49,423 nt of DNA from positions 1 through 49,423 of the forward strand of contig JACREC010000046.1 in assembly GCA_016218445.1 (NCBI GenBank), read 5' to 3'. Source of the DNA: Nitrosomonadales bacterium. Its GTDB lineage: Bacteria; Pseudomonadota; Gammaproteobacteria; Burkholderiales; Gallionellaceae. The position numbers and the translations under genes are program-made. Shown here piece after piece: positions 20,697 through 25,334 of this stretch. How positions within the stretch are numbered: position 1 is the first letter of the stretch; the number at the start of each line of letters is the position of its first letter. Under the pieces are notes generated by a model. It had not been told where the DNA came from. It made no database searches and saw only the letters and a program-made list of their open reading frames with translations.

Positions 20697-21330
20697 TGCA
20701 CTACTAACCGTTCGTGCTGAGCCTTTCGACGAAGCTCAGGACAGGCCAGTCGAAGCACCCGCCGAAGGGGGCGCGGCACCAATTGATGCGGTGCAACTCA
20801 AGAAAACTCTGGAAGCCGCCCTGCTGACCACGCAGGAACCGCTGTCGCTGGCCGAACTGAAAAAACTCGGCGATGCGCCGGTGGAAAGCCGACTCATCGA
20901 AGAACTGCTCGAACAACTGGCGCAGGAATACGCGGGCAGCGGCGTGGAACTCAACCGCGTGGCGAACGGCTGGCGCTTCCGCGCCCGCCCCGAAATGCAA
21001 CCCTACCTGGATCGCCTCAACCCGCAGAAGCCGCCGCGCTACTCGCGTGCGGTGATGGAGACGCTCGCCATCATCGCTTACCGCCAGCCGGTGACGCGCG
21101 GCGACATCGAGGAAATTCGCGGCGTGGCCGTGTCCTCGCAAATCCTCAAGACCCTGGAAGTGCGCGGCTGGATTGAAGCCATCGGCACGCGCGACACGCC
21201 GGGCAAACCCGAGCTGTTCGCCACCACCAAACAACTGCTCGACGATCTCAACTTGCGTTCCCTGCAGGAACTGCCTTCGCTGGAAGAAATCGGCTCGCTG
21301 CTGGAACAGGGTGGAAACGTAGGGGCGTGA
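20662..21330 (+). CDS. scpB: segregation and condensation protein B, with repeat-derived N-terminal segment
   Basis: LEAALLTTQEPLSLAELKKL, PRYSRAVMETLAIIAYRQPVTRGDIEEIRGVAVSSQILKTLEVRGWIEAIGTRDTPGKPELFATTKQLL. Start at ATG 20662, overlapping scpA. Confidence 0.92.
   Translation: MSEQAVALPQSDALLTVRAEPFDEAQDRPVEAPAEGGAAPIDAVQLKKTLEAALLTTQEPLSLAELKKLGDAPVESRLIEELLEQLAQEYAGSGVELNRVANGWRFRARPEMQPYLDRLNPQKPPRYSRAVMETLAIIAYRQPVTRGDIEEIRGVAVSSQILKTLEVRGWIEAIGTRDTPGKPELFATTKQLLDDLNLRSLQELPSLEEIGSLLEQGGNVGA
20706..20758. repeat. dispersed repeat (CGTTCGTGCTGAGC..GCTCAGGACAGGCCAGTCGAAGCAC type) translated within scpB
   Basis: accgttcgtgctgagcctttcgacgaagctcaggacaggccagtcgaagcac encodes TVRAEPFDEAQDRPVEAP. 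Confidence 0.7.
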
Positions 21331-21342
21331 TTCATCACGCTC
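21319..21342 (+). repeat. REP-like unit R1 (contains scpB stop codon)
   Basis: gtaggggcgtgattcatcacgctc. Confidence 0.75.
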
Positions 21343-21352
21343 AGAACAAAAT

Positions 21353-21376
21353 GTAGGGGTGCAATTTATTGCGCCC
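21353..21376 (+). repeat. REP-like unit R2
   Basis: gtaggggtgcaatttattgcgccc. Confidence 0.8.
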
Positions 21377-21399
21377 AAAACAACGAAGGCGTGTAAATC

Positions 21400-21423
21400 G
21401 GGCGCGATAAATCGCGCCCCTAC
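21400..21423 (-). repeat. REP-like unit R3 (inverted)
   Basis: gggcgcgataaatcgcgcccctac. Confidence 0.8.
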
Positions 21424-21494
21424 GACATTTGCAGCGCGCAATGCCATCGCCCCCACGACCCAATGACAGCCACACCTTTTTGAGATCCACGTTC

Positions 21495-23309
21495 ATGACC
21501 ACAACCATCAAACCAGCAGGCCGTACCTTGGCCGAGTTCCAGCCACTTAAACCGGCGGAACAGGAGCTGCTGGAGGCATGCCGACAGGGAACGGTTGCGC
21601 GCATTTCGGATAAACGCCCCGAAGCGGCGAATGACAACAACATCGTGCGCGCCGCCTTCCTGCGTTTTCTCGCACTCGGCGGAGACGAGCAAACCCCCGT
21701 TCATGAACACGGCGTTCAACTCCTCGGTGCATGGGTCGAAGGCGTACTGGACATGTGGGCCGCCAGTGTTCCCTCTGATCTTGCTATTTTGGATTGTCAC
21801 TTTGACATCACTCCTGTGTTTCTTGGCGCAAAGATCGCGGGGACACTTAATCTTAGTGGCTGCCAAATTCCCGGCCTAAACGGGGATAGACTTGCTTGCA
21901 ATGGTGGTCTGTTCCTGCACCAAGGCTTTGCTGCCACAGGAGAAGTGCGACTGCTGGGTGCCCAGATCGGCGGAGACCTCGATTGCAGTAGCGCGAAATT
22001 CGATGGCAAGGAGAATGACTATGCACTGTGGGCAGATGGTGTAATGGTTAAAGGCTGCGTATTTCTGAACAAAGGCTGCACTGCTACCGGAGAAGTACGA
22101 CTACTGGGTGCACAGATCGGTGGAAACCTTGATTGCAGCGGCGCGGAATTCGACGACAAGGATGGCAATGCACTGTCGGCAGATGGTGCTGTAATTAAGG
22201 GCAGCGTATTCCTGAACAAAGACACAGATAAAGGCGCGGATAAAAACTTCACTGCCACGGGAGAAGTGCGACTGTTGGGCGCCCGGATCGACGGAGACTT
22301 TGATTGCAGTTGCGCGAAATTCGATGGCAAGAATAACAAAGCACTGTCAGCAGAGGGAATGATGGTCGCAGGAACTTTCTTCTTCCGAAACTTGGTCGAA
22401 CCGGTCAACGGAGTTTCTCTCGCTTCGAGCCATGTGGGCCGCTTGGCAGACGATGCAGGAAGTTGGGGTAAGTGGCTCCATTTGGATGGTTTCACTTACG
22501 ACAGCATTGCCAGCGGCGCGCCGACCGATGCGGTTACACGCCTCGCATGGCTAGACAAGCAATATCAACCACACTCCGGGCTCAATGGAAATGGTGCAGA
22601 CTTCAAACCCCAGCCTTGGCGACAGCTTGCCAAGGTGCTGCGGGAAATGGGCCACGCAGAGAATGCGCGACAAGTGGCAATTGCTTTCGAGCATCGGTTG
22701 CGCAAGGCCAACTTGATTGGGCAGATGCCCAAACATTGGGGCAAGTTGAACTCGTGGTTTTACCGCAATATCAGCCGTGGGGGACATTGGCTGTTCTGGG
22801 TGTTCACCGGTTACGGCTACCGCCCCTTGCGCTTGCTGGCCTGGATATTCGGCGTGTGGATGTTCTGCGGGATGCTTTACTGGTATGTCGCACTGGCTGG
22901 TGTGTTTGCGCCATCCAATCCGCTGGTGTTCCAAAACTTGGCGTACGACGTTTGCAAGCCAGGTCATGTTACACCCGCCCAGCAGGGTAAGGCCGCCAGC
23001 GCCGCCCCGCCGACCATACAAGGCGCGGGCAACTGGTATTTGTGCGAAAAATTACCCGAGGAGTATTCTGGTTTCAGCCCGCTGGCTTATTCGCTGGACG
23101 TGATCCTGCCCTTGGTGGATTTGCAGCAGGAGACCAGTTGGTCGCCCTTGATCCAGACGCCAAAGAATGTCTGGTATCAAGAGTTGGCAGCCTTCGATTT
23201 GAAACACCTCACCCGTTTGGTCTTGTGGTTTGAAATCCTGTTCGGCTGGGTGTCCAGTTTGTTGCTGGTGGCGGTGGTTTCAGGTTTGACCAAACGGCGC
23301 GAAGAATGA
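21495..23309 (+). CDS. pentapeptide-like repeat membrane protein
   Basis: Three near-identical modules TATGEVRLLGAQIGGDLDCSSAKFDGK followed by transmembrane segments (LLAWIFGVWMFCGMLYWYVALAGVF; FGWVSSLLLVAVVSGL). Confidence 0.8.
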   Translation: MTTTIKPAGRTLAEFQPLKPAEQELLEACRQGTVARISDKRPEAANDNNIVRAAFLRFLALGGDEQTPVHEHGVQLLGAWVEGVLDMWAASVPSDLAILDCHFDITPVFLGAKIAGTLNLSGCQIPGLNGDRLACNGGLFLHQGFAATGEVRLLGAQIGGDLDCSSAKFDGKENDYALWADGVMVKGCVFLNKGCTATGEVRLLGAQIGGNLDCSGAEFDDKDGNALSADGAVIKGSVFLNKDTDKGADKNFTATGEVRLLGARIDGDFDCSCAKFDGKNNKALSAEGMMVAGTFFFRNLVEPVNGVSLASSHVGRLADDAGSWGKWLHLDGFTYDSIASGAPTDAVTRLAWLDKQYQPHSGLNGNGADFKPQPWRQLAKVLREMGHAENARQVAIAFEHRLRKANLIGQMPKHWGKLNSWFYRNISRGGHWLFWVFTGYGYRPLRLLAWIFGVWMFCGMLYWYVALAGVFAPSNPLVFQNLAYDVCKPGHVTPAQQGKAASAAPPTIQGAGNWYLCEKLPEEYSGFSPLAYSLDVILPLVDLQQETSWSPLIQTPKNVWYQELAAFDLKHLTRLVLWFEILFGWVSSLLLVAVVSGLTKRREE

Positions 23310-24049
23310 AAGGTTGCGGATCAGGGCGAAATGAATTGCGCCCCTACAATGCGGGAACCCATTCATGCGTAGGGGTGCGATTTATCGCGCCCGATTTGCC
23401 ACCCGAATTTATTGCGCCCGATTTACCGCCTGACACACCGGCATTCAACCCTGATATCCACCATCGTCGTTCCATCCGGTTACGCGGCTACGATTATTCG
23501 CAGGCCGGGGCGTATTTCATAACCCTATGTACGCAAAAACGGGAATGCCTGTTTGGTGGCGTGATGGGTGATGTTATGCAGTTGAACGATGTCGGACGTT
23601 TGGTGAGAAATGTTTGGGATATGTTGCCCGATCATTATGCAGGTGTGACATTGGATACGTTTGTGGTTATGCCAAATCATATTCATGGCATTGTCATGTT
23701 GAACGACGTAGGAGCGCAATTCATTGCGCCCAATAACGATGATGGCGCAATAAATCGGGGCACGATAAATCGCGCCCCTACGATAGGTGAAATCATCCGC
23801 GCATTTAAGGCGCGTTGTACGCACGGCATCAACCAATTGCGCAGTGTGCAAGGCGTGTCAATTTGGCAGCGCAATTATTACGAACACATCATTCGTGACG
23901 AATCCTCGTTGCAGGAAATCCGCGAATACATAACCAATAACCCGGTACAGTGGGCAAATGATCGTGAAAACCCGGATGTCGTGGAGGGCGCGATGAATCA
24001 GGGCGCAATAAATTGCGCCCCTACGGATTTGAAAGATACCAAGGTATGA
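23306..24049 (+). CDS. REP-associated Y1/HUH transposase-like protein (RAYT / IS200-like)
   Basis: HHRRSIRLRGYDYSQAGAYFITLCTQKRECLFG, VVMPNHIHGIVML (HUH), WQRNYYEHIIRDESSLQEIREYITNNPVQW (Tyr). ATG 23306 overlaps upstream stop; core may start near NPDIHHRR. Confidence 0.88.
   Translation: MKGCGSGRNELRPYNAGTHSCVGVRFIAPDLPPEFIAPDLPPDTPAFNPDIHHRRSIRLRGYDYSQAGAYFITLCTQKRECLFGGVMGDVMQLNDVGRLVRNVWDMLPDHYAGVTLDTFVVMPNHIHGIVMLNDVGAQFIAPNNDDGAINRGTINRAPTIGEIIRAFKARCTHGINQLRSVQGVSIWQRNYYEHIIRDESSLQEIREYITNNPVQWANDRENPDVVEGAMNQGAINCAPTDLKDTKV
23324..23347 (-). repeat. REP-like unit R4
   Basis: gggcgaaatgaattgcgcccctac. Confidence 0.75.
23369..23392 (+). repeat. REP-like unit R5
   Basis: gtaggggtgcgatttatcgcgccc. 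Confidence 0.8.
23405..23419 (+). repeat. partial REP-like unit R6, tandem with R5
   Basis: gaatttattgcgccc; encodes second FIAPDLPP copy. Confidence 0.6.
23708..23731 (+). repeat. REP-like unit R7 inside transposase CDS
   Basis: gtaggagcgcaattcattgcgccc, encodes VGAQFIAP. Confidence 0.8.
23742..23781 (-). repeat. REP-like partial plus full unit R8 inside transposase CDS
   Basis: atggcgcaataaatcg + gggcacgataaatcgcgcccctac. Confidence 0.8.
23986..24024 (-). repeat. REP-like partial plus full unit R9 at the 3' end of transposase CDS
   Basis: gggcgcgatgaatca + gggcgcaataaattgcgcccctac. Confidence 0.8.
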
Positions 24050-24849
24050 AGCACATTCAATCCCGCGATAATCCGTTTTTCAAGGAACTCGTCAAACTCG
24101 CCGGTTCGGCGCGTCAGCGCAGGAAGGCCGCGCAAACCCTGCTGGATGGCGTGCATCTGGTTCAGGCGTATCTCGCCTCAGGCGGCAAGCCGCAACATTT
24201 GCTGGTAACACAAGCGGCATTGCAGGATCGCGAAGTGGCGGCATTGCTGAAAAAACTTTCCGCTGTGCCGCTTACGCAACTGGACGATACTTTATTTGCC
24301 GAACTGTCCGAACTCAAGACGCCCAGCGGCATCCTCGCGCTGATCGAGTTGCCGCAGCCCACCGCATCAATTGCCGCCACCTGCTTTGCGCTGTTGCTGG
24401 AAGACATACAAGACCCGGGCAATCTCGGTTCCATGCTGCGTTCCGCTGCCGCAGCGGGATGCGATGCAGTGTTCCTGTCCAAAGGTTGTGCCGATGCATG
24501 GTCGCCCAAGGTGCTGCGCGCGGGGATGGGCGGGCATTTCGTGCTCAGTATCCACGAATCCATGGATTTGCCCGCTGTTGCCGCAGTATTCAAGGGCGAG
24601 CTATTTGCCGCATCGCTGGATGCAAAAACCAGCCTGTATGACTGCGATCTGCGCGGCAAGCTGGCTTTTGTGCTGGGCAATGAAGGGGCGGGGTTATCCG
24701 GAGAATTGCTGGCGGCGGTCAGCCGGCATGTCGCCATTCCCATGCCGGGGAAAGTCGAATCATTGAATGTCGCGGCTGCGGCTGCGGTGTGCTTGTTCGA
24801 GGCCGCGCGGCAGCGCCAATTTACTCATCCTGCAAAAGCACCAGCGTAA
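24046..24849 (+). CDS. TrmH/SpoU family RNA methyltransferase
   Basis: SRDNPFFKELVKLAGSARQRRKAAQTLLDGVHLV, LEDIQDPGNLGSMLRSAAAAGCDAVFLSKGCADAWSPKVLRAGMGGHF, LGNEGAGLS, IPMPGKVESLNVAAAAAVCLFEAARQR. Confidence 0.92.
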   Translation: MKHIQSRDNPFFKELVKLAGSARQRRKAAQTLLDGVHLVQAYLASGGKPQHLLVTQAALQDREVAALLKKLSAVPLTQLDDTLFAELSELKTPSGILALIELPQPTASIAATCFALLLEDIQDPGNLGSMLRSAAAAGCDAVFLSKGCADAWSPKVLRAGMGGHFVLSIHESMDLPAVAAVFKGELFAASLDAKTSLYDCDLRGKLAFVLGNEGAGLSGELLAAVSRHVAIPMPGKVESLNVAAAAAVCLFEAARQRQFTHPAKAPA

Positions 24850-25244: not shown

Positions 25245-25334
25245 CCGCATAACCACGGAAAACACGGATAACGCGGAAAAGACCAAAGTTTGGTTTGCAT
25301 TCCGTGTACATCCGTGTCTTCCGTGGTTAACCGC
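25245..25334. repeat. inverted CCACGGAAAACACGG-type repeat
   Basis: ccgcataaccacggaaaacacggataacgcgg vs ccgtgtacatccgtgtcttccgtggttaaccgcc. Confidence 0.6.

Follow-up and report, generated by a model that had tools for sequence, protein, structure and literature searches.

How does a transposase gene come to carry REP sequences in frame within its own coding sequence, and is the recurring unit a DNA element or the peptide that it encodes? The question was raised by a RAYT gene located in a 49,423 bp contig of a Nitrosomonadales bacterium (the whole contig is called the window below). With the cognate hairpin located inside the coding sequence of the transposase, enzyme and substrate are physically linked, which touches the wider questions of how RAYT-REP matching is kept up over evolution and what role RAYTs play for their hosts.

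The transposase and its REP copies

The following features were located in this part of the window:

23306..24049, + strand: RAYT (TnpA_REP) ORF, 247 aa, HUH-Y1 single-stranded DNA endonuclease family, subclass 2.4 type (profile score, fold, motifs)
23324..23347, - strand: R4, upstream flanking REP (REP match), part of the ORF only if translation begins at ATG 23306
23369..23392, + strand: R5, upstream flanking REP (REP match), pairing with R4 in a predicted hairpin
about 23402..23419, + strand: R6, half copy of the REP that lacks the GTAG foot and belongs to a 27-bp tandem duplication (repeat analysis)
23675..23686, + strand: HUH motif N-H-I-H, residues 124-127; N124, H125 and H127 invariant in 69 homologues
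23702..23782, + strand: permissive loop, residues 133-159, with the in-frame REPIN (AlphaFold2 coil, REP-rich in homologues); example loop peptide FIAPNNDDGAINR
23708..23731, + strand: R7, REP GTAGGAGCGCAATTCATTGCGCCC, read VGAQFIAP (REP match)
23758..23781, - strand: R8, inverted REP GTAGGGGCGCGATTTATCGTGCCC, read GTINRAPT on the + strand (REP match)
23864..23896, + strand: WQRNYYEHIIR, W187 to R197, putative GTAG-guide recognition segment (conservation; E. coli equivalents in PMC6006769)
23927..23929, + strand: probable catalytic tyrosine Y208 in EYITNNP (invariant; YIxNNP motif)
24001..24024, - strand: R9, downstream flanking REP (REP match), in-frame readthrough to the short tail DLKDTKV
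24046..24849, + strand: SpoU-type RNA 2'-O-methyltransferase gene, its start overlapping the RAYT stop (ATGA)

The frame was open throughout positions 23306-24049. The profile NF047646 (REP_Tyr_transpos) matched the ORF with 67.8 bits (E 8.7e-19), short of its curated cut-off of 80 bits, with the loop insert dividing the match into two segments, and Pfam Y1_Tnp gave a weak match. The RAYT-type label is still supported because the fold matches 4er8. An AlphaFold2 model computed from 69 aligned sequences (core pLDDT >90) predicted a ferredoxin-like HUH fold with a Tyr helix, as found in HUH-Y1 transposases. The closest solved structure was 4er8, a complex of E. coli TnpA_REP with a REP hairpin (Foldseek E 1.9e-07), followed by the ISDra2 and IS608 transposases. 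The E. coli enzyme shares the HUH-Y1 fold but belongs to subclass 2.2, has a DHLH motif and has no reported in-gene REP.

Subclass 2.4 of TnpA_REP, equivalent to Bertels group 4, is described with the motifs NH[IFV]H, WQ and YIxNNP and a long variable HuH-Y distance (Quentin et al. 2018, PMC6006769), and in-frame REPs in a loop of the transposase gene were already reported there for this subclass. The window ORF carries NHIH, WQ and YITNNP, as well as the in-gene REPs (R7/R8, 23708-23781), and its motifs and anatomy match those of subclass 2.4. The likeness extends to the HuH-Y distance and to the peripheral loop of the published model, and there is no substantive difference in kind; the window locus additionally reads flanking REPs in the same ORF and overlaps a SpoU methyltransferase gene by ATGA. 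In the open-access literature, surveyed mostly by title and abstract, no description of REPs inside RAYT genes was found beyond this paper, in the consulted passages of which phase switching and single-copy cases were not found. What the comparison of 97 loci presented below adds is the loop enrichment, the tracking of REP with the transposase core, phase switching and the single-copy cases.

The sequence-only reading had placed the catalytic tyrosine in NYYEH, which proved to be the wrong residue. Y208 was invariant across 69 homologues and fits the YIxNNP motif of the subclass, making it the probable catalytic tyrosine. NYYEH falls in the segment whose E. coli equivalents are named as GTAG-recognition residues in PMC6006769; in the same 69 homologues W187, Q188, E193 and R197 were invariant and H194 was conserved in at least 90%.

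Eight REP matches were present in the window, compared to none in 100 dinucleotide shuffles. Those within the ORF were R4, R5, R7, R8 and R9; three more of the same family (two on the + strand, one on the - strand) were clustered at 21319-21423, near the start of a 626-aa ORF. R7 and R8, being in inverted orientation, form a REPIN. REPINs and REPtrons are known from GTAG-tagged REPs, their inverted dimers and their association with RAYTs (Bertels and Rainey 2011, PMC3116915; Di Nocera et al. 2013, PMC3733652). The classical ones are mostly intergenic and flank the RAYT, whereas here the dimer lies within the transposase coding sequence; intragenic REPs encoding 20-30 amino acids were described in other genes (PMC3733652).

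It had been claimed that R4 to R9 all lie inside the open ORF, and the frame is indeed open through the REPs. The R7/R8 REPIN belongs to the protein with certainty, being enclosed on either side by conserved core. The remainder of the claim needs amending, since R6 is a half copy, R4-R6 precede the conserved core and R9 lies past it. R4-R6 and R9 are flanking REPs as is usual for a REPtron, and the RAYT frame happens to run through them without a stop; together with the three REPs at 21319-21423, R4, R5 and R9 make up the REPs with a GTAG foot on either side of the gene. For R4-R6 and R9 translation is unproven, for R4-R6 because the upstream REPs are read in differing frames among the syntenic orthologues and because in two of these, L024 and L025, an in-frame ATG follows the upstream REPs. 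The same downstream ATGs, and the position of R4-R6 ahead of the core where they may be 5' untranslated, would suit the view that the REPs are no part of the true coding sequence or that the gene is a pseudogene. We consider this very unlikely, as invariant core residues bracket R7/R8 and the five syntenic orthologues of the family have an open ORF with all motifs.

At the start of the RAYT ORF, R4 and R5 were predicted to pair in a very stable RNA hairpin (23312-23432, -55.8 kcal/mol, z -5.5), and an effect of this hairpin on translation initiation is conceivable. The SpoU methyltransferase gene followed the RAYT in 5/5 syntenic orthologues (the window and L022-L025), with the ATGA overlap in 4/5. 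On the other side, the stop of the 626-aa ORF (21429-23309) overlaps the RAYT start by ATGA. This ORF had no match in Pfam or NCBIfam; it contains repeats of the GEVRLLGAQIGGDLDCSSAKFDGK kind, after which come hydrophobic stretches that resemble membrane segments.

REPs in the loop of homologous transposases

The loop sits between the HUH strand (residues 125-132) and the next helix (160-178), and was modelled as coil with moderate confidence (pLDDT about 57-70). We compared 97 non-redundant loci, drawn both from the bacterial family and from a wide range of phyla, mostly out of metagenome-assembled genomes. A loop REP was present in 77 of them under a strict REP definition, a prevalence that may be biased, since of at least 566 candidates from genome contigs the 80 most similar to the query were taken. 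In the 20 loci without a detectable loop REP, some copies were decayed and some loops truly empty and short (L147, L079 and L113). Several REP families were found at this same site across homologues. Five distinct RAYTs that were examined in this bacterial family and belong to other subclasses had no REP in the equivalent loop.

The loop held 12.4 REPs per kilobase. For the remainder of the core the density was 0.18-0.19, and for the flanks it was 3.7-5.2 within the first 150 bp and less than 0.4 beyond 300 bp. Passive landing should favour the non-coding flanks, and the observation that the loop is richer than even the nearest flanks argues against it; an additional force, of targeting or of retention, is thus needed. 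In 25 of the 97 loci a loop REP was present with none within 1 kb, and the presence of a loop REP was not significantly associated with the presence of flanking REPs (Fisher p 0.19).

The idea that the loop tolerates self-insertion, put forward from the sequence alone, is well backed by the predicted coil, the enrichment of REPs across phyla, the variety of phases and REP families at one site and the homologues with an empty loop. An equally long loop with the same residues in REP-free homologues would have spoken against it, and these homologues have no such loop. A second proposal was that the 24-bp unit length preserves the frame. Unit length alone is not sufficient for this; what counts is the phase together with the total length inserted, which is about 74 nt here and 72 nt in the pair L141/L147 described below. 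In one homologue (L042, ORF nt 1297-1950) a REP-like segment (VGARRAVPDLSRRAVPDLG) was apparently inserted elsewhere, ahead of the HUH motif in the N-terminal half of the core, and a further permissive loop may thus exist there.

Reading phase and match between REP and transposase

Forward loop REPs were distributed as 56, 18 and 0 in phases 0, 1 and 2, respectively (counted with a looser REP definition and including three duplicate loci). The empty phase is the one that turns GTAG into a TAG stop. The loci L063 and L067, with cores 72% identical, hold the same palindrome in phase 0 (VGARHAVPL) and in phase 1 (GRGTACRAPT), respectively, and a near-identical palindrome was likewise read in differing phases in L064 and L074. 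On the core tree, which is based on few columns and has many unresolved forks, the phase of the leading REP changed at least nine times. A single ancestral insertion with constant phase was rejected, the phases differing between close cores.

It might be supposed that the loop is conserved for a function of its peptide (VGA..AP or GA..APT) and holds palindromes only incidentally, and some of the peptide's residues do recur in many homologues. When the peptides were recoded synonymously, 200,000 draws recreated a REP in 389 cases for the R7 peptide and 93 for the R8 peptide (at most 0.2%); the palindromes are therefore no by-product of the peptides. Conservation of the peptide cannot explain the recurrence either, since one palindrome read in different phases gives unrelated peptides, and several REP-less homologues simply do not have the segment. 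A functional peptide thus seems scarcely credible, and comparison of the sequences indicates that the recurring unit at the loop is the DNA hairpin rather than the encoded peptide.

The REP was found to follow the transposase lineage. The identity of the cores, with the loop removed, correlated with REP similarity (Mantel r 0.42, reached in 0/2000 permutations). For 29 pairs chosen on loop-free core identity (at least 65%), mean REP similarity was 0.94 where four-fold degenerate sites were near saturation (mean identity 0.35); a comparison of such sites within groups of REP type was discarded as circular and replaced by these pairs. Among 80 loci, 49 had flanking sequence within 1 kb that shared at least 90% identity with the loop REP of the locus. 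The loop REP had a mean similarity of 0.85 to its own flanks versus 0.65 to foreign ones (Wilcoxon p 2e-10). Identity of REPs across phyla could come partly from horizontal transfer of the gene together with its REP.

Origin and retention of the in-gene copy

A filled and an empty site could be compared in L141 and L147, which belong to one genus and differ there by exactly 72 nt. Both junctions are readable as C|T, and TnpA_REP is known to cleave at the dinucleotide CT (PMC8266576). Loss of the REP in L147 appears more likely than a gain in L141, because related lineages share the inverted REP with L141. Further filled/empty cases were sought in this genus and only that pair was found; a single pair cannot separate insertion from precise loss, nor prove the action of the transposase.

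Starting from what was observed directly (the position in the loop, the frame constraint, the pairing of REP with transposase lineage and the near-absence of REPs from the rest of the core), we propose as the best explanation, with a probability of about 60%, the recurrent self-insertion of cognate REP or REPIN DNA into a permissive loop, followed by its retention at the DNA level. In this model, the subclass 2.4 RAYT would act on single-stranded REP hairpins, which are probably its DNA substrate, and the cognate REP or REPIN would be inserted as DNA. The encoded enzyme itself would cut single-stranded DNA at C|T and carry out the strand transfer that inserts the REP. The target would be the surface loop that follows the HUH strand and precedes the next helix, where the protein would tolerate extra residues, and the survivors would be in-frame insertions avoiding the phase that turns GTAG into TAG. 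The in-gene copy would then be a permanently linked cognate REP, travelling with the gene.

REP copies were counted in 32 host genomes with the pattern GTAGGGGC-N(11-14)-GCCC, in which a perfect palindrome with two feet counts twice, giving 2 to about 500 per genome. In six assemblies, L058 (Aquaspirillum serpens), L120 (Bergeyella zoohelcum), L064, L067, L099 and L101, the loop REP was the sole exact copy of its stem; degenerate copies escape such an exact search, and the assemblies are mostly drafts. The 1-kb flanks of L058, L064, L067 and L101 were also without a close copy of the loop REP, while those of L120 and L099 held near copies. Together with the excess in the loop over the flanks, the single-copy cases argue for some retention force, and genomes whose only exact REP copy found is in-gene are good natural cases for probing the function of this copy.

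Such cases are what would be expected if the REPIN were a selected cis-element, kept since the transposase binds its own gene or transcript (autoregulation or cis-preference) or as a linked seed for new REP populations. Autoregulation, with the gene or its mRNA serving as substrate of the encoded protein, had been raised in the sequence-only reading and is a speculative form of this explanation. The six sole exact copies, four of them without a close copy in the 1-kb flanks, the 25 loci with a loop REP and none within 1 kb, and the retention of REP sequence where four-fold sites are near saturation all fit this explanation. The 20 loci without a detectable loop REP count against it, the empty homologues arguing that the copy is not necessary; moreover, in the predicted RNA of the window R7 and R8 each fold separately with no mutual pairing (z -2.8). 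We consider selection for such an element rather unlikely. Conservation of REP at the DNA level and the sole exact copies nevertheless leave room for a cis function, and it is possible, though rather unlikely, that in subclass 2.4 the in-gene REPIN is the primary selected cognate site, a DNA element retained within the coding sequence and sometimes the sole exact copy of the genome, which would provide self-recognition (autoregulation or cis-preference) or seed REP populations after horizontal transfer.

The genome to which the window belongs (1.92 Mb, 85% complete) contained about a dozen REP copies, mostly near the RAYT gene, and a search of plasmids for relatives returned distant ones only. 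In the window, a 20-nt inverted repeat, 95% complementary and with 40 nt between its arms (TAACCACGGAAAACACGGAT), was located at 25250-25329. The genome has a second RAYT of the subclass 2.4 type (L051, contig C115), and its corresponding loop holds a REP of another family (GTAGGGGCGTATGGCAATACGCCC).
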